This document shows, in pieces, positions 1-33,968 of a stretch of 33,968 nucleotides of DNA. A program made the position numbers and the translations under genes. A model generated the notes under the pieces. That model ran no database searches. It had not been told where the DNA came from and was given only the letters and a program-made list of their open reading frames with translations. Numbering within the stretch: position 1 is the first letter of the stretch; every line of letters begins with the position of its first letter. Source of the DNA: Kiloniellaceae bacterium (GTDB lineage Bacteria > Pseudomonadota > Alphaproteobacteria > Kiloniellales > J153). The stretch spans positions 1-33,968 of the forward strand of contig JAJFGL010000015.1 of NCBI GenBank assembly GCA_021776135.1. The letters are read 5' to 3'.

Positions 1-553
1 CCGGCGACTTGAACCGCTGTTGTTTTCGTTCGCGCCGGCGAACCGGCTGGTGAGAATTCTGGGCTCGATTGTTTTCCCGCAAGCCCTGATCATGGACAGC
101 GGACAGCCGCTCTTTGCGGATGGCGACAGCGTAGGATTTCAACTTGTCCGTGGTAATGCGCTTCGGCGCGAAGCCCTGCTTCTTCAGCAACTTCCGGAGC
201 AATCGTCTCGCCGATTTAGCGCCGCGTCGTGGCTGAACCAGGAAGTCGAGCACCTCGCCTTCGTCGTCTACCGCCCGCCACAGCCAGTGCTTGCTGCCGC
301 GGATCTTGATGACCATCTCGTCGAGATGCCAGCGTGCACTGGCGCGCGGACGGCTGCGGCGGAGATTACCGGCAATCAGTCGGCCGAACTTCAGGAACCA
401 GCGTCGAACCGTTTCGTTCGAAACATCGATACCACGCTCGGCTAGCAGATCCTCGACATCGCGAAATGACAGCGTGAAACGGGCGTAGAGCCAAACCGCA
501 TGTTGGATGATCTCGCGCGAAAAGCGATGCCGCTTAAAGGATATCGGGGTCAT
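1..553 (-). mobile_element. IS6-family transposase, 5' part, catalytic Glu replaced by Gln
   Basis: The minus strand is open from an ATG at 553 to the window edge (184 codons), so the C-terminus lies outside. The product has the IS6 layout: an N-terminal helix-turn-helix region (RHRFSREIIQHAVWLY, then RDVEDLLAERGI), WHLDEM with the first catalytic Asp at residue 78, and TTDKLKSY with the second Asp at 136. The third acidic residue of the DDE triad normally lies in a motif NNRAENSHQP. Here codon 165 is CAG, giving NNRAQNSHQP. The spacing of 28 residues after the second Asp fits this subgroup. By family knowledge the change should abolish strand transfer, unless it is a sequencing error. The terminal inverted repeat was not securely located; the upstream end probably lies between about 580 and 615. 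Confidence 0.9.
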
Positions 554-1111
554 CCCGGGACCGTACCGGTCCCTCCCCGCGCCGGCTATCGACTTAACGT
601 GTCAATGCCGCCCAGAGCAAGGCGGGCCGATGCGCCCGGCGTTTCGGCTACCTGAAGTCAGGATACGCGATGCTAACACCACAGGATCGCAGGAAAGAAC
701 CCAAGGGCATAGTCGGAGCTTGGAATTATGCCTGCCCGTGCAACCGACCGCAGATGCCATTCGATGTCGGACCAGTATTGCTCACATCCGTGCCCCACCA
801 ATACCGACGCACCCGGTTTCTCACGGTGCCTGAGCATTTCGAGGGGTGATTGCAGATTTTCAATGCAAAACCCGACGCACGGTACGTCCGCCAGCGCGCC
901 TCCAACGGGCAATGAAGCGCGTGGACCAGGTTTTGACGAGGGACAGCATCAATTTCGTGTGAGTTTGTGGCCGGTACAATGTAATGACCACCATGTCTTA
1001 AAGATGAAAGGAGGTGATTTTGTTCCGGGCGTACGGCCGAACCGCTGACAATTGTAACAGCTGCTTCAGACGCCCGCATCGGTTTAGGCAACTTAAAGGA
1101 GCCAACAACGC
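554..1111. other. Intergenic stretch with a possible decayed DUF1326 remnant
   Basis: No intact gene is supported here. On the plus strand around 697-740 the translation reads KGIVGAWNYACPCN. Around 853-890 a frame-shifted piece resembles CxFNAxPTHG. Both recall the start of DUF1326 proteins, which have Cys-rich N-termini of the type CNCxxGCPCxFNAxPTHG. Stops and frame changes interrupt the reading, so if real it is a pseudogene. The end of the stretch carries a good ribosome binding site (AAAGGAG) for the protease that follows. The IS6 end must lie somewhere in the first 60 bases. Confidence 0.3.
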
Positions 1112-26841: not shown

Positions 26842-27096
26842 ATGACCGACTTGTCCAATTCGCCGACCGAGGTCTGGAGCCTCCGGGCAACGCTATCGGG
26901 CCAACGCCTGTTCGCGGGCATGGACAGCGGCGCCCTCGAGTCGATTCTTCGGGACGTGGAATGGTTCAGCCGGCCAGGCGGCTCGGTCCTGTTCCACGAA
27001 GGCGATCCCGGCGACGCGCTCTATCTGGTGACCTCCGGTTCCCTGGCCGCGACGGTGCTCCAGGGCGACGGCGCCAAGATTGTGGTGGCCCAGATT
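26842..27096 (+). pseudogene. Truncated cyclic-nucleotide-binding-domain protein (N-terminal fragment)
   Basis: About 85 codons encode the start of a cNMP-binding domain: GQRLFAGMDSGALESILRDVEWF, SVLFHEGDPGDALYLVTSGSLA, then AKIVVAQI. After this the frame runs into DNA antisense to cysH and no longer resembles any domain (the reading frame stays open to 27267). In intact relatives the domain continues and is often followed by a patatin phospholipase. The break is at about 27085-27100, the same place where cysH (minus strand) loses its C-terminus. Confidence 0.75.
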
Positions 27097-27605
27097 TCTT
27101 GCCCCGACCAATCGGCGAGGGGATTAAATTTCGCCAGCCTGTTATCCGTATCCCATTCCTCGAACGGCAGGTCACGGCGGGTCGGTGACTGCGCGCAACG
27201 CTGGCCGGTTATCCAAGCTCGTTTGCCCGCGAGCGCGCGTTTGAGTGGCTTTACTTTGTGGATATAGCAGCACTCGCGGCGCCGGAGCGCGCTTTCGTAG
27301 AAGGCGTTCGGCCCGTGCGTGGCGGCGAACGTCTCCACGTCCGCGGTCGAGGGCGCGAACACCGTCAGCGGCACCCGGTAACGCTGGCGCGTTTGCTGCA
27401 TCAGGCGGTATGTCTCCTCAGGTAGGCGGCCGGTATCGAGGGTAAAGACGCCGATGCTGAGGCCATGACGATCAATGAGGTCGGTCAGCAACATGTCCTC
27501 AGCGCCGAAGTTGCTCGCAAGTTCCGCGGGGGTGTGTTCCCGCGAGATGGTCCGCAACCGTTCAAGGACTTCAAATTCCTTGCTGTGCGTGTCGATCACG
27601 CTCAT
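27087..27605 (-). pseudogene. cysH: cysH (phosphoadenylyl/adenylyl-sulfate reductase), C-terminally truncated
   Basis: The minus-strand frame starting at 27605 (MSVIDTHSKEFEVLERL) encodes a CysH: AELASNFGAEDMLLTDLI, GVFTLDTGRLPEETY, RRRECCYIHKVKPLKRAL and FNPLADWSGQEIWA. Intact proteins continue for about 60 residues with a Cys-x-x-Cys pair and an ECGLH-type active-site Cys. Here the similarity stops at IWA (27087-27092) and the frame runs through antisense cNMP sequence to a stop at 27021. The iron-sulfur and catalytic Cys residues at the C-terminus are therefore missing. It is the last gene of the cys operon, and the enzyme is probably inactive. Confidence 0.8.
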
Positions 27606-27759
27606 CGGTATACGCTGGTGTTTGTGTGCACACCCACCGTCCCGGCGGCGTGGAAGAACCATTCGGCGGGCAAGCCGGCGGCAAGCGGTATCTGATTTGA
27701 CGTCAATACAGGCATGGGCGAGACCTTGTGCGCGACCTGCGCGATACGAGCCGCGGAGA

Positions 27760-28281
27760 TCAGCCGCAGGTTCCGTTCAGAAACGCGTTTGTGGTGTCGT
27801 TGCGGATCATCGCCGCGGAGCGCCGCCGGTCTGCCGCGGTCTGGTACACGGCCTCGATTTCGTCGAATGCCGCAATCGCTTTTTCCGCCGCCGTTTTGTC
27901 GGCAAACTCGAAGGCGTCGAAACCGCAGCGCCGCATGAATTGCACTTGATCGCGCAGTATGTCGCCAACAGCGCGCAGTTCCTCGGTGTAGTGGTGGCGC
28001 TGGCGCAGCAACCGCGCCGTCGAATAGGGGCGGCCGTCCTTGAAGGTCGGAAATTCCAGCGCCACGACGCCGAACCGCGGCAAGTCGTTGATGATGGTGT
28101 CGACGCCTTCGTCGCTTTTCAGGCGAATGCCGAGCGGGGCGTTGCGCCCAACCAGCACAGTCTGCTCGGCCTGCCAGCGTGCCAACGAGATGATCACCCC
28201 GCCGTCGGCGGGCAGCGCCATCTCGTCGTCGACATGCTGCCAGGTGTCGATGACAACCTGTTTGCTCTTAATGAGCGGCAT
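27760..28281 (-). CDS. DUF934 (sulfite-reduction associated) protein
   Basis: The 173-residue protein begins MPLIKSKQVVIDTWQHVDD and carries the DUF934 core (LGIRLKSDEGVDTIINDLPRFGVVALEFPTFKDGRPYSTARLLRQRHHYTEELRAVGDILRDQVQFMRRCGFDAF). This family is a regular companion of cysI in Alphaproteobacteria and is assigned to sulfite reduction, although its biochemistry is unsettled. Its start overlaps the end of cysI by 14 bases, indicating translational coupling. The downstream partner cysH is truncated, so the pathway is broken at the level of (P)APS reduction if no other copy exists. Confidence 0.88.
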   Translation of the reverse strand: MPLIKSKQVVIDTWQHVDDEMALPADGGVIISLARWQAEQTVLVGRNAPLGIRLKSDEGVDTIINDLPRFGVVALEFPTFKDGRPYSTARLLRQRHHYTEELRAVGDILRDQVQFMRRCGFDAFEFADKTAAEKAIAAFDEIEAVYQTAADRRRSAAMIRNDTTNAFLNGTCG

Positions 28282-29923
28282 AGAGAGTCTCCTTGAAAGG
28301 CTCCTTGCCGACACGGCGATAGGTGTCGAGGAAGCTTTCGCCGTCGGTGCGCAGGCCGACATAGGTGGTGGTGATGGTTTCGATCGCGTCGACAACGTTG
28401 TCATAAGACACCGCCGGCCCGATGATCTCGCCGAGGCTGGTGTTCTCGTCGGCGCTGCCCCCGAGCGTGATCTGGTAATACTCCTCGCCCTTGCGGTCGA
28501 CGCCAAGCAATCCAATATGGCCGACATGGTGATGGCCGCAGGCGTTGATGCAGCCGGAAATCTTCACCTTGAGCTCGCCGATATCGTGCTGCTGCTTGAG
28601 ATCGGCGAACCGCTTGCTGATGTCTTGGGCCAATGGAATCGAGCGGGCATTCGCGAGGCTGCAATAATCCATCCCTGGACACGCGATAATGTCGCTGATC
28701 AGTCCGAGGTTTGGCGTCGCTAAATCGTGGCTCCTGAGCGTCTGCCAGACATCATAAAGATCGGCCTGACGGACATGCGGTAGCACCAGATTCTGCTCAT
28801 GCGTCACCCGGATTTCACTGAAGCTGAAACGCTCGGCGATCGCCGCGACGGCGTTCATCTGTTCCGCTGTCGCATCGCCCGGAATGCCGCCTTCGGGCTT
28901 CAACGAGATATTGGCAATGTCATAACCCGGCTGCTTGTGCGGCGCGACATTGGTGCGCGCCCATTGCGCGAACTCGCGATCCTCGAGTCGGTAGCGGGCG
29001 AATAAGGCGTCGTGTTTCGCCAGGGGTTCGAAACGCGGTGGCGCGAAGAAGGCGGCGATGCGATCATGCTCGCCGGCCGGTAGATCGACCGCGCTGTCAC
29101 GGATTGCTTCCCACTCGGCGTTAACCCGGCGGATGAATTCCTCGGCGCCCAGCGCGTGCACGAGTATCTTGATTCGCGCCTTGTACATGTTGTCGCGCCG
29201 GCCGGCTTGGTTGTAAACGCGCAGAATTGCCTCGATGTACGACAGCAGGTGGCGTTTTGGCAGGAAGTCGTGAACCGTGACGCCGATCATCGGCGTGCGC
29301 CCGAGACCGCCGCCGACAATCACCTGATAGCCCATCGCGCCGGCCTCGTCGGACTTGATGATCAGGCCGATGTCGTGGACGCGCGCGGCCGCGCGGTCGC
29401 GCGGCGATCCGGTGACCGCGATCTTAAACTTGCGCGGCAGGAACGAGAACTCCGGGTGCAAGGTCGACCATTGGCGCACGACTTCCGCGGTGATGCGCGG
29501 ATCGGCAACCTCGTCGGCCGCGGCACCGGCATACTGGTCGGCGGTGACATTGCGGATGCAATTGCCGCTGGTCTGCAGCGCGTGCATTTGAACTTCGGCC
29601 AGCTCGGCCAGGATGTCCGGCATCTCCTCCAGCTTGGGCCAGTTGAATTGCAGGTTCTGCCGCGTCGTGAAGTGGCCGTAACCCTTGTCGTAGCGTCGTG
29701 CGATATGCGCCAGCTTACGCATCTGATGCGATGACATCGTGCCGTAGGGGATGGCCACGCGCAGCATATACGCATGCAGCTGCAGATAGAGGCCGTTCAT
29801 TAGCCGCAGCGGCTTAAACTGTTCCTCGGTCAATTCACCCGCCATGCGGCGGCGCACCTGGTCGTGGAACTGTTCGACGCGCTGATCCACCAGCGATTGG
29901 TCGATGGCGTCATAGAGATACAT
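28268..29923 (-). CDS. cysI: Sulfite (nitrite/sulfite) reductase hemoprotein
   Basis: The 551-residue enzyme reduces sulfite to sulfide with six electrons using sirohaem and a [4Fe-4S] cluster. The N-terminal FTTRQNLQFNW and a sirohaem-binding half are followed by the two cysteine motifs that hold the cluster: ACPGMDYCSLA (C-x5-C) and KISGCINACGHHHVGHIG (C-x3-C). The length and order match CysI of the ferredoxin/NADPH family. It sits between DUF2849 (upstream) and DUF934 (overlapping downstream) in the cys operon. Electron donor genes are not in the window. Confidence 0.92.
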   Translation of the reverse strand: MYLYDAIDQSLVDQRVEQFHDQVRRRMAGELTEEQFKPLRLMNGLYLQLHAYMLRVAIPYGTMSSHQMRKLAHIARRYDKGYGHFTTRQNLQFNWPKLEEMPDILAELAEVQMHALQTSGNCIRNVTADQYAGAAADEVADPRITAEVVRQWSTLHPEFSFLPRKFKIAVTGSPRDRAAARVHDIGLIIKSDEAGAMGYQVIVGGGLGRTPMIGVTVHDFLPKRHLLSYIEAILRVYNQAGRRDNMYKARIKILVHALGAEEFIRRVNAEWEAIRDSAVDLPAGEHDRIAAFFAPPRFEPLAKHDALFARYRLEDREFAQWARTNVAPHKQPGYDIANISLKPEGGIPGDATAEQMNAVAAIAERFSFSEIRVTHEQNLVLPHVRQADLYDVWQTLRSHDLATPNLGLISDIIACPGMDYCSLANARSIPLAQDISKRFADLKQQHDIGELKVKISGCINACGHHHVGHIGLLGVDRKGEEYYQITLGGSADENTSLGEIIGPAVSYDNVVDAIETITTTYVGLRTDGESFLDTYRRVGKEPFKETLYAAH

Positions 29924-29952: not shown

Positions 29953-30249
29953 TTAAAGCTCGGCCTGCTTGCCTATATCGGGGCGCACCGTCGGGCCCTT
30001 GGCGCGGATCAATTCGCGGTACCGCGTCGGCCGGCGTTCGCCGCCGCTCTCGTCGATGTCGATGAGGTAAGGTTCGACGACAAGGCGCGCGACCTCGGCG
30101 GCACGCGCCGCCGCCATCGCCGCCTCGCCGGCCTCCTTGTCGGTAACGGCGTGCGCGTCGGCGATACGCTCGGACCAGCCGCTACCGTCGGTCATATAGA
30201 CGACAAGGCCATCCCCGAGCCGGTTCGCCGAGATCACCTGAGTGGCCAT
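29953..30249 (-). CDS. DUF2849 protein (sulfite reductase operon)
   Basis: The 98-residue protein (MATQVISANRLGDGLVVY...) matches DUF2849, a family found between cysG and cysI in Alphaproteobacteria. Conserved elements are SANRLGDGLVVYMTDGSGWSE and RYRELIRAKGPTVRPDIGKQAEL. Its role is unknown. The start at 30249 has GGGGAG at good distance; upstream ATGs in frame are less well placed. The gene starts 13 bases after the cysG stop, so they form one operon. Confidence 0.85.
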   Translation of the reverse strand: MATQVISANRLGDGLVVYMTDGSGWSERIADAHAVTDKEAGEAAMAAARAAEVARLVVEPYLIDIDESGGERRPTRYRELIRAKGPTVRPDIGKQAEL

Positions 30250-30262
30250 ATGCATCTCCCCA

Positions 30263-31687
30263 TCATGCTTGCGCATACGCTTGCGCGCGGGCATCGACGC
30301 CCGGTGCCGACTCCCTGGCGAGCGCCGCGACATCGCCGATGACGATCAGGGCCGGGCCGACGATACCGCGCCCGGCCACGGTCGCACCCAACGTCGCCAG
30401 GGTGCCCCGGGCGACGATCTGTTCCGGGCGGGTGCCGTTCTCAATCACGGCAACCGGCATCGCAGGCCGCATCCCGTGCGCCACTAGCCGATCGCCGATG
30501 ATGCCCGCCGTTGCGACGCCCATGTAGATCACCAGCGTGTGCCGGGTGGCGGCGAGGCTCGCCCAATCCGGCTCCGGTGCGCCGTCGCGCATATGGCCCG
30601 TTACGAAGGTGACACCCGAGGTGTAATCGCGATGGGTCAGCGGCAGACCTGCCGCCGCCGCGCAGCCGGTCGCCGCAGTGATGCCGGGGATAATCTCGAC
30701 GGCGATGCTGGCGGCCTGGAGATGGGCCATTTCCTCGCCGCCACGGCCGAATACGAACGGATCGCCGCCTTTCAGGCGCGCCACACGACGCCCGGCACGG
30801 GCCTGTGCCACCAGCAGTGCGTTGATCGCCTCCTGGTTCATGGCATGGTTGCCGCGCGCCTTGCCAACATAGATTCGCTCGGCATCGCGGCGCACGTAAT
30901 CCAGGATCCGGTCGCCGATCAGCCGGTCGTAGACGACCACGTCGGCATCCTGCATCGCCCGCAGCGCCCGCAGCGTCAGAAGGTCGGGGTCGCCCGGGCC
31001 CACGCCGACGAGGGCGACCGACCCTTCCAACGATGGAGCGGTGCCGCTATTGACCAGACGCAGCATGGCGCTGGTGGCCTGAGGCTCGCGGCCTTCGAGG
31101 ACGAGCCGCGCCACCGGGCCGTCGAAAAAGATTTCCCAGAACCGGCGGCGGCGTCCGCTATCGGGCTGGGTGCCGGCAATGGCGGTGCGAAATCGCTGCG
31201 CGAATCGCGCGAGATGCCCAAGGCGCGATGGCAGCAAGGCCTCGATCTGTTCGCGCAGCCGCCGCACGAGCACCGGCGCCGCACCCGCGCTGCCGATCGC
31301 GACGAGGATCGGATCGCGCTCGACGATACCGGGAAACACGACCGTCGAGAGATCCGGCCGGTCGACGACATTGACCGGGATGTTCGCCTGCCGGGCGGCC
31401 GCGGCAAATGCTTCGGCCGTATCGCTATCGGCGTCCGCGACGACAATCAGAGCGTAGGCGGCCAACCGGCGCCGCGACAGGTCCGGCAGTCCATCGGCGC
31501 GCTGCACGACGCGCACCTTGCCGTCGCGTGCCAGCGCACGAATCTCCGCATTGATGGCGCTGGCGACGACCGTCGGCCGGGCGCCCGCGCGCAACAGCAA
31601 GCGCAGCTTGCGTGCCGCATTTTCGCCGCCACCGGCGACAAGACATTCGCGCCCCTCAAGGTCGGCGAACAAGGGCAGATATTTCAT
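30263..31687 (-). CDS. cysG: Sirohaem synthase (uroporphyrinogen-III C-methyltransferase / precorrin-2 dehydrogenase-ferrochelatase)
   Basis: The 474-residue bifunctional protein makes the sirohaem needed by CysI. The N-terminal CysG-B Rossmann domain has LVAGGGENAARK (Gly19-21) and the GSAGAAPVLVRRL segment with Ser133, equivalent to the regulatory Ser128 of the Salmonella protein. The C-terminal methyltransferase has VGVGPGDPDLLTLRAL (about residues 228-243), YDRLIGDRILDYVR and VARLKGGDPFVFGRGGEE. It is the first gene of the leftward cys operon. The ATG at 31687 was preferred because the 29 upstream residues of the longer frame do not belong to the domain. A divergent Lrp-type regulator and a palindrome lie upstream. 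Confidence 0.93.
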   Translation of the reverse strand: MKYLPLFADLEGRECLVAGGGENAARKLRLLLRAGARPTVVASAINAEIRALARDGKVRVVQRADGLPDLSRRRLAAYALIVVADADSDTAEAFAAAARQANIPVNVVDRPDLSTVVFPGIVERDPILVAIGSAGAAPVLVRRLREQIEALLPSRLGHLARFAQRFRTAIAGTQPDSGRRRRFWEIFFDGPVARLVLEGREPQATSAMLRLVNSGTAPSLEGSVALVGVGPGDPDLLTLRALRAMQDADVVVYDRLIGDRILDYVRRDAERIYVGKARGNHAMNQEAINALLVAQARAGRRVARLKGGDPFVFGRGGEEMAHLQAASIAVEIIPGITAATGCAAAAGLPLTHRDYTSGVTFVTGHMRDGAPEPDWASLAATRHTLVIYMGVATAGIIGDRLVAHGMRPAMPVAVIENGTRPEQIVARGTLATLGATVAGRGIVGPALIVIGDVAALARESAPGVDARAQAYAQA

Positions 31688-31789
31688 GTCACTGTCATCC
31701 CTGCGCCTCTGCCGCAACCGGGCAGAGCAAAGTGTATAGATGACAGATTTAGAAATATATTTTTCCTTTGGCAATATGATTGATAGAAA

Positions 31790-31806
31790 TAGAACAATTC
31801 GTTCTA
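31790..31806. promoter_or_regulatory. Perfect palindrome between cysG and the Lrp gene
   Basis: TAGAAC-AATTC-GTTCTA has perfect 6-base arms and a 5-base spacer. It lies in an AT-rich intergenic segment of about 150 bases between the divergent cysG and Lrp/AsnC genes. It is a good candidate operator for the adjacent Lrp-type regulator and probably controls both directions. The flanking AT-rich DNA (AAATATATTTTTC, TATAATATC) offers -10-like sequences. Confidence 0.65.
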
Positions 31807-31840
31807 TAATATCAACGTACAGAGAGAAATTTGTCTAAAA

Positions 31841-32305
31841 ATGGGAATTTTGCGAATGGATGAGATGGACCGTCGGATATTGAGAATCCTGCAGGAGGAC
31901 AGCGGTCTGTCGACCTCCGATGTGGCGCGCCAGGTCGGCCTGTCGGCCTCGCCTTGCTGGAAGCGGATAAAGCGGTTGCAGGACGACGGCATCATCAAGC
32001 GCCAGACCGCCGTGCTCGATGCCAGCCGCCTCGGTTTTGGCCTCACAGTCTTCGTCAGCATCAAGACCGGTGAACATTCGAAGAACTGGCTGGAGGAGTT
32101 TTCCGAAAGGATAACGGCCATGCCGGAGGTGATGGAATTTCACCGCATGGCGGGCGAGGTGGACTATATGCTCAAGGTCGCCGTGCGGGACATGGCATCG
32201 TTCGATGAGTTCTACAAACGCCTGACCGGCATCACGGCACTAACCGAAGTCACGTCGCGCTTCTCGATGGAGACGATCAAGGAAACGACGGCACTGCCGA
32301 TTTGA
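31841..32305 (+). CDS. Lrp/AsnC-family transcriptional regulator
   Basis: The 154-residue regulator has an N-terminal helix-turn-helix (residues about 8-60, ILRILQEDSGLSTSDVARQVGLSASPCWKRIKRLQDDGII) and a C-terminal RAM/AsnC ligand-binding domain (about 72-150, LTVFVSIKT, MPEVMEFHRMAGEVDYMLKVAVRDMASFDEFYKRL). It is divergent from the cysG-cysI operon with a palindrome between them, so it most likely autoregulates and controls that operon. A second in-frame ATG at 31856 (MDEMDRRILR) fits the usual start of the family and has GGGA upstream. Ligand unknown. Confidence 0.9.
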   Translation: MGILRMDEMDRRILRILQEDSGLSTSDVARQVGLSASPCWKRIKRLQDDGIIKRQTAVLDASRLGFGLTVFVSIKTGEHSKNWLEEFSERITAMPEVMEFHRMAGEVDYMLKVAVRDMASFDEFYKRLTGITALTEVTSRFSMETIKETTALPI

Positions 32306-32488
32306 GGAGGCTCTCAAGTTGACGACGATTTTGGTGGTTATGCGTCCGCGATTTGGTCCTTGAACGCCGGATCAAGTGGCCGGCTGTAAGATGGTCCATC
32401 TCCGGCAACCGTGCGCTAACCCGCTGGTTTTGACATGGACTTGATATTCGCGGTCTAACCCTTTGATTCCTTTGGGTCGCGAGAGGTA

Positions 32489-32532
32489 TCATAATCCGCG
32501 TGTCGGGGGTTCGAGTCCCTCTCCCGCTACCA
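32489..32532 (+). other. 3' half of elongator tRNA-Met (CAU): probable attachment site
   Basis: The bases TCATAATCCGC, then GTGTC, GGGGG-TTCGAGT-CCCTC and TCCCGCT-A-CCA give the 3' part of a tRNA: anticodon loop from U33 with CAU anticodon (32490-32492), 3' strand of the anticodon stem, variable loop, T-arm, acceptor 3' strand, discriminator A and encoded CCA. The expected 5' half (matching acceptor strand AGCGGGA or similar, D-arm, GCGGA of the anticodon stem) is absent: the upstream DNA (GTCGCGAGAGGTA) does not pair. Such truncated tRNA ends are classic attachment-site remnants of integrative elements. The rest of the gap 32306-32666 contains no gene I can support. Confidence 0.7.
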
Positions 32533-32666
32533 AATCCTTCATGTCTGGCGCCGCAGCCCCTGAATCGGCAGGTTTTCCAAGGTAAATGGCCGCTTTAAGG
32601 CGGTTTTAATGTTTAGTAGCCCAATTTCGGCGAATCGTCTAAATCTGCCCCCATCTTGAGGAGACC

Positions 32667-33968
32667 ATGGGACAAGTCCTGATGCCTGAACCGGCTGGCC
32701 GGATCCGCGACGTGCGCCTGACAACGGCGCTGGAAGAGCGCTATCTGTCTTATGCGCTCTCGACCATCATGTCGCGCTCGCTGCCCGATGTGCGCGACGG
32801 CCTGAAACCGGTTCACCGGCGCTTGCTTCATGCCATGCGCCAGCTCAAGCTCGATCCGGGCTCCGGCTTCAAGAAGTCGGCGCGCGTGGTCGGCGACGTG
32901 ATGGGCAAGTTCCACCCCCATGGCGACCAGTCGATCTACGATGCCCTGGTCCGCTTGGCCCAAGATTTTTCCGTGCGCTACCCGCTGATCGACGGCCAAG
33001 GCAACTTCGGCAATATCGATGGCGATAACGCCGCCGCCATGCGCTATACCGAGGCGCGGCTGACCGAGGTGGCCGGGGCGCTGCTGGAAGGTATCGACGA
33101 GGATTCGGTCGATTTCAAACCGACCTACGACGATGAATCCGAGGAGCCGGTGGTGATGCCGGCCAACTTCCCGAATTTGCTGGCCAATGGCGCCCACGGC
33201 ATTGCCGTCGGCATGGCGACCTCGATCCCGCCCCATAACGTGGGCGAGATTTGCGACGCCCTGAAGCACCTCATCAAGACCCCCAAGGCAACCGTCGGCA
33301 AGCTGGTCGACTTGATGCCGGGACCGGATTTTCCCACCGGCGGTATCCTGGTCGAGGCGCGCGAGAACATCGTCGAGGCCTACAAGACCGGGCGCGGCGC
33401 GTTCCGCCTGCGGGCGCGCTGGGAGGTCGAGAAGCTGAAGGGCGGCGGCTTTCAAGTCGTGGTCACGGAAATCCCGTTCCAGGTTCAGAAATCGCGCCTG
33501 GTGGAAAAGATCGCGGAGCTTCTGACCGCCCGCAAGCTGGCCATGCTGGGCGACGTCCTGGACGAATCGACCGACGTGGTGCGCTTGGTCCTGGAGCCCA
33601 AGAGCCGCAACGTCGACCCTCAGGTTTTGATGGAATCCCTGTTCCGCCAGACCGATCTGGAGGTCCGTATCGGCCTCAACATGAATGTCCTGGGCGCCGA
33701 CAACACGCCGCGGGTGATGAACCTGCGCGACGTTCTGCGCGCCTATCTGGACCACCGCCACGTGGTGCTGTGCCGGCGCACGCGCTTTCGCCTGGATAAG
33801 ATCGCCCGCCGTTTGGAGGTCCTGGAAGGCTACTTGGTCGTCTTCCTCAACCTCGATGCCGTTATCAAGATCATCCGCGAGGAGGACGAGCCCAAGCCGG
33901 TCCTCATGAAGCGCTTCAAGCTGATCGATGGCCAGGCCGAAGCAATCCTGAATATGCGCCTGCGCGCC
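32667..33968 (+). CDS. parC: DNA topoisomerase IV subunit A (5' part)
   Basis: The first 434 codons are present and the gene runs off the window. The ATG has GAGGAG nearby (TTGAGGAGACC-ATG). The product is the GyrA/ParC breakage-reunion domain: [72 protein letters not shown] with active-site Tyr127, and [15 protein letters not shown]. It relaxes and decatenates chromosomal DNA with ParE. The lack of the long GyrA-type N-terminal tail and the [18 protein letters not shown] segment favour ParC. In place of the quinolone-associated Ser (E. coli ParC Ser80) it has Gln. This is a core chromosomal gene beyond the probable integration boundary. Confidence 0.9.

Follow-up and report, generated by a model that had tools for sequence, protein, structure and literature searches.

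A 3' half of tRNA-Met(CAT) next to parC as the probable right end of a genomic island in an alphaproteobacterial assembly

What is half a tRNA gene doing beside a core gene, and if it is the mark of an integrated element, where does that element lie? We considered this question for the whole of contig C7, a 33,968-nucleotide stretch (hereafter the window) of a Kiloniellaceae assembly (G000; 70 contigs, 97.9% complete), in comparison with assemblies from the same genus (G001-G003) and from another genus of the same order (G005 and G008). An earlier sequence-only reading had noticed the 3' half of a tRNA-Met gene next to parC and suggested that it was left behind at an integration boundary; the observation is confirmed in substance, and that first interpretation is supported by what follows. 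The fragment is probably the attR of a genomic island that a tyrosine recombinase inserted within the 3' half of tRNA-Met(CAT); a scar of this attR-like kind, marking an island at a tRNA-Met gene, belongs to a known class of structure.

The fragment occupies positions 32488-32532 of the forward strand, extending from the anticodon loop to CCA. The truncation was read correctly, with the 5' half missing and the CCA end present, but the start had been placed one base late, at 32489, and the fragment is 45 nt long. All 45 positions agree with the corresponding half of an intact tRNA-Met(CAT) gene located 3' of mnmA on another contig (C51:21196-21272), and a BLAST search of the assembly with that tRNA gives this gene as its sole full-length match; identity over all 45 positions to the one full-length match excludes chance. 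The intact gene predicted to exist elsewhere in the genome is therefore present and carries the identical half, and the second copy that had been sought upstream is found on this separate contig. ARAGORN typed the C51 gene as tRNA-Met, a label that for a CAT anticodon covers both elongator tRNA-Met and CAT-anticodon tRNA-Ile as possibilities. No tRNA was predicted by ARAGORN in the window, an Rfam search of positions 30000-33968 at E-values up to 1 gave no match, and no further copy of the core is present in the window even with seven substitutions tolerated, in agreement with the single copy originally reported.

An integrase had been expected at the other end of the element, and such a gene does lie 255 bp 3' of the intact C51 tRNA-Met, inside the element (L003:7904-8941, numbered within the 19-kb C51 locus L003). 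Its product matches phrog_1 (E 9.5e-24), and its match to Pfam Phage_integrase is partial (positions 9-103 of 172) and below the cut-off; its catalytic domain is incomplete, and a PF00589 search over the same genome does not list it. Alignment with three plasmid homologues (28-33% identity there, 24-33% in another comparison) indicates that the stretch with the R-H box (HDLRH, YALRH and HSTRH in the homologues) is missing and the tyrosine is retained. A search of viral contigs for relatives of this integrase returned no match. Judged from its sequence, the integrase is probably inactive, and since it is without this catalytic stretch, the island is probably now fixed and immobile. An empty site is represented by the same-genus assembly G002, in which mnmA (85% identical) is followed by tRNA-Met and then by an ORF that we read as histone H1-like; no integrase was recognized on reading the G002 ORFs after mnmA and tRNA-Met.

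Lone 3' halves of this tRNA are also found in other genomes. A pattern scan yielded 104 stretches from one genome per GTDB species and eight from viral contigs, for a total of 114 hits in 112 loci, from which we dropped five hits whose loci contain an intact tRNA on inspection by eye (L169, L171, L199, L203 and L268) and five repeats sharing the same 40-nt left flank. At least 101 lone fragments in GTDB species genomes and at least three in viral contigs were kept, these being lower bounds because the pattern required a non-A base followed by the core from its first base; for the same reason, the common start point of the fragments is partly by construction. Unconstrained BLAST found 3' fragments starting at tRNA positions 27-33 in G000, G004, G005, G009 and G010, along with two shorter fragments of 31 nt (G016:C406 and G009:C37). 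Integrase ORFs were located within 2 kb of 23 of the 104 lone fragments, and they are about nine times denser near the fragments (23 in 347 kb, 0.066 per kb) than farther away (3 in 413 kb, 0.007 per kb), as counted with a profile built from eight motif-picked ORFs of these same loci. The catalogue shows how often the tRNA-Met gene serves as an attachment site.

The two ends also share a short word. Across the whole window there is a single TTTGACAT octamer, at 32429 (-59 from the core), where it belongs to the putative integrase arm-type site TTTGACATG (32429-32437, forward strand); the 19-kb C51 locus has three, always within the 255-bp gap between tRNA and integrase. Dinucleotide shuffles equaled this statistic in 9 of 1000 cases on the window side and in 0 of 1000 on the C51 side. 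Weighing against a shared site, the longest word common to both flanks measures 9 nt, a length equaled by 87 of 500 mononucleotide shuffles. Three of the 104 lone fragments carry the octamer within 200 bp to the left of the core, L257 at -59, L227 at -59 and -48, and L228 at -52; the left flank of L257 is the flank of the G005 copy of the conserved right end described below. The motif CTAA (32455-32458, forward strand) stands at -33; of the 103 lone fragments whose left flank extends 70 bp or more, 9 have it at exactly this offset, against a mean of 0.4 per offset. Column conservation around the lone fragments is otherwise weak, reaching a maximum of 0.68 bits (79 sequences) at -1, the position at which the collection pattern barred A. 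We infer from these recurrences that the octamers, and CTAA, are candidate integrase sites.

The two ends of the proposed island lie on separate contigs, which overlapping contig ends allow to be joined. When C51 is reversed, its end coincides with the first 96 bp of C47, and apart from C51 itself no contig of the assembly but C47 matches that end at 100%; the last 59 bp of C47 are identical to the first 59 bp of C7. This second overlap is matched equally well by the last 59 bp of C19, and the same 59 bp also begin G000:C62; the left end of C7 has exact words in common with three G000 contigs. Comparing the G000:C62 flank with the flanks in G001, G003 and G005 by synteny fitted neither C47 nor C19, so C47 is preferred as the left neighbor of C7 on grounds of parsimony. 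The island most likely consists of C51:21195-1, C47 and C7:1-32532, a three-contig union of about 64 kb (21.2 + 10.6 + 32.5). Together with the shared putative arm sites, the overlaps point from the left of the window to the C51 end, the direction in which the other end had been placed. The left end of C7 is a contig-end repeat, a transposase gene (2-553, reverse strand; PF13610) cut by the contig start. Sequence from window positions 1-600 has 22 matches in G000, the window counted, versus four in G003, and several G000 contigs terminate in it.

The right end itself is conserved in another genus. Positions 32352-32534 (forward strand), which include the core, are 85% identical to G005:C142:53914-54096, and a search of 61 genomes of the order at E 1e-20 found this segment in two, G000 and G005. 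The 136 bp to the left of the fragment recur in G005 together with the fragment (85%) but beside different cargo: the left neighbors there read as LysR, TRAP transporter, amidase and flavin oxidoreductase genes, and the cys cluster, which in the window stands left of the fragment, is on its right-hand side in G005. Within L093:3180-14097, G005 has another tRNA-Met half about 9.5 kb to the left of this fragment, and about 100 bp from that left half is an integrase (Arm-DNA-bind_3 and Phage_integrase, above the Pfam cut-offs); reading the ORFs between the two halves, we recognized no integrase. This arrangement is likely an island array. Cis-mobilizable elements and accretion islands offer a possible analogy, in that two tRNA halves enclose DNA in which no integrase was read, beside a segment with its own. 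A more speculative proposal, which we consider rather unlikely, is that the right end of about 180 bp and the tRNA half form a docking module shared by a family of integrase-dependent cargo islands in this order. The module adjoins different cargo in two genera, and we saw no integrase at that end; on this proposal, recombination at the tRNA halves might exchange metabolic modules by means of the integrases of neighboring elements.

The cargo to the left of the fragment reads as metabolic. The last gene before the right end encodes an Lrp/AsnC regulator (31841-32305, forward strand; PF01037), and to its left, all on the reverse strand, lie the siroheme synthase gene cysG (30263-31774; NF007922, above cut-off), a gene for a DUF2849 protein (29953-30333; PF11011), a cysI-like sulfite/nitrite reductase gene (28268-29923; PF01077 and PF03460, reaching the cut-off of none of the 11 NCBIfam models listed) and a cysH-like gene (27021-27662; PF01507) whose C-terminal end is unrelated, homology to G005 stopping at 27088. 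The region from 27.1 to 32.3 kb is 87-89% identical to G005 versus 67-71% identical to the same-genus assemblies G001-G003, whereas parC is 88-89% identical to same-genus G001 and G002 versus 80% to G005, a contrast that fits horizontal acquisition of the cargo. Farther left, the region from 14.2 to 19.7 kb has matches of 80-84% in G008, which belongs to the genus of G005. GC content is 0.599 for C7 (600-32350), 0.598 for C47, and 0.575 and 0.624 for the two C51 parts on the island side, a small difference from the 0.614-0.631 of three chromosomal stretches on C51 and C32. Reading the island ORFs by eye, we noticed neither relaxase or conjugation genes nor phage structural genes. Positions 27021-27264 are an overlap of two converging genes that look cut, perhaps by a deletion or an assembly join: the cysH-like gene on the reverse strand and, on the forward strand, an ORF from 26842 that we read as a cyclic-nucleotide-binding protein and for which NCBIfam gave no match.

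To the right of the fragment, positions 32594-33968 (forward strand) hold the parC upstream region and the 5' part of parC (TIGR01062, above cut-off), which is cut by the contig end. The description of the fragment as adjoining parC thus holds for the contig, but the bin contains another parC allele besides this one, and in the relatives examined parC does not adjoin the tRNA. The other parC of the assembly, on C32, is 87.7% identical to it over 901 bp and syntenic with G002; that copy (L047) is itself cut near codon 135 by a contig end. Among the parC loci of 29 relatives (L006-L034; up to 1.5 kb upstream, some ended by the contig), none carries the fragment with seven substitutions tolerated, and the refuting case named in the earlier reading, relatives that bear it with no inserted DNA, did not turn up there; ARAGORN on 23 of these loci predicted no tRNA-Met and one tRNA-Gly. 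With the downstream flank of the G002 tRNA, the right flank shares only 8 nt, followed by different sequence and parC; the histone H1-like ORF of G000 is on C46, beside genes that we read as rluD- and rpoH-like.

The unexpected flank bears most on where the window comes from. Because of the second parC allele, an overlap with G003 and neighbors unlike those seen in relatives, another species may be the source of C7 or of its right part, or else the flank may have undergone rearrangement. A true attR in C7 DNA from a co-occurring species represented by the G003 bin, with a left end at that species' own tRNA-Met and not at C51, is a possibility that we take seriously, though we would not favor it. 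The last 141 bp of C7 (33828-33968) are identical to the first 141 bp of G003:C62 (L098:1-141), and G003 matches the parC part of C7 only there and in gyrA, while G000 has its other parC on C32. A classifier based on composition (AUC 0.90; trained on 217 pieces, 18 of them from G003) places G003:C62, the parC end of C7 and C7 from about 24 kb nearer G003; it classes C7 from 0.6 to 24 kb as G000, however, and since it also marks several C51 and C47 pieces as G003-like, it is unreliable for island DNA and suggestive only. In favor of this possibility, searches of the G003 bin turned up neither an intact tRNA-Met nor mnmA, but G001 likewise has no matches to either. The exact words linking the left end of C7 to G000 contigs and the octamer sites matching C51 also argue for G000. 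Along parC, sliding identity passed from C7 to G003:C62 without an abrupt change. The two contigs seem to share a single assembly graph, with one parC seemingly split between bins, and the parC adjoining the fragment should be treated as possibly mis-binned.

Other explanations concern the junction itself. An assembly chimera, in which the right end of the element was joined through the 45-bp repeat to the tRNA-Met flank of another locus or species, would account for the parC flank, and multi-word assemblers use small word sizes shorter than 45 bp; yet G005 shows the same pairing of core and right end, and a tRNA half beside parC would still need to exist somewhere, which leaves this unlikely. 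We find it similarly improbable that a circular element whose attP contained the tRNA half inserted outside any tRNA gene, using a secondary site flanked by an oxidoreductase gene and parC. An ORF read as a FAD oxidoreductase does end just before parC in G001, G002, G005 and G008, where window homology begins (32594 in the first three, 32603 in G008), and in G000 and G003 even the best match to it reaches just 41% identity. However, an insertion that falls between two genes does not by itself delete one, and the core is a perfect tRNA half. That only half a tRNA is present could also reflect decay of a tRNA-Met gene with no tie to integration, but the 45 nt show no decay, an integrase adjoins the identical intact copy and integrases are enriched near lone copies elsewhere; we rejected simple decay on these grounds and regard it as highly improbable.

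Under the preferred reading, an attR in the window, a tyrosine recombinase would have integrated the element at the 3' half of tRNA-Met(CAT), duplicating the 45-bp core. The element's copy of the core would have rebuilt the tRNA at the left end, on C51, and the chromosome's own 3' half would have been displaced to the right end, in the window. The element would then lie to the left of the fragment, with metabolic cargo that includes the sulfite-reductase-like gene, the siroheme synthase and the Lrp regulator. This places a boundary of the probable 64-kb metabolic island at the tRNA-Met gene, with the sulfur-assimilation genes on the acquired side. Insertion of foreign DNA at tRNA genes is an ordinary bacterial route of gene gain.

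Two known systems resemble this arrangement. Islander (PMC4383910) deals with islands that have a tDNA at one end and its displaced fragment at the other, and its crossover classes include one in the anticodon loop ('A'). The present case shares the intact tDNA at one end, the displaced 3' fragment at the other, the integrase gene and the anticodon-loop 'A' crossover; unlike those islands as described there, its ends are on different contigs, its integrase is incomplete and its right flank is not that of relatives. Paracoccus prophages at tRNA-Met(CAT), ten entries of which nine have tyrosine and one a serine recombinase in the excerpt consulted (PMC6536676), share the same kind of target gene, an alphaproteobacterial host and mostly tyrosine recombinases; they differ, on that excerpt, from the metabolic cargo free of noticed phage structural genes seen here. 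In G005, the contig with the intact tRNA-Met (L095:1-148) stops one base past CCA, and a copy of the first 49 nt of the tRNA (96%) lies just upstream of the intact gene.
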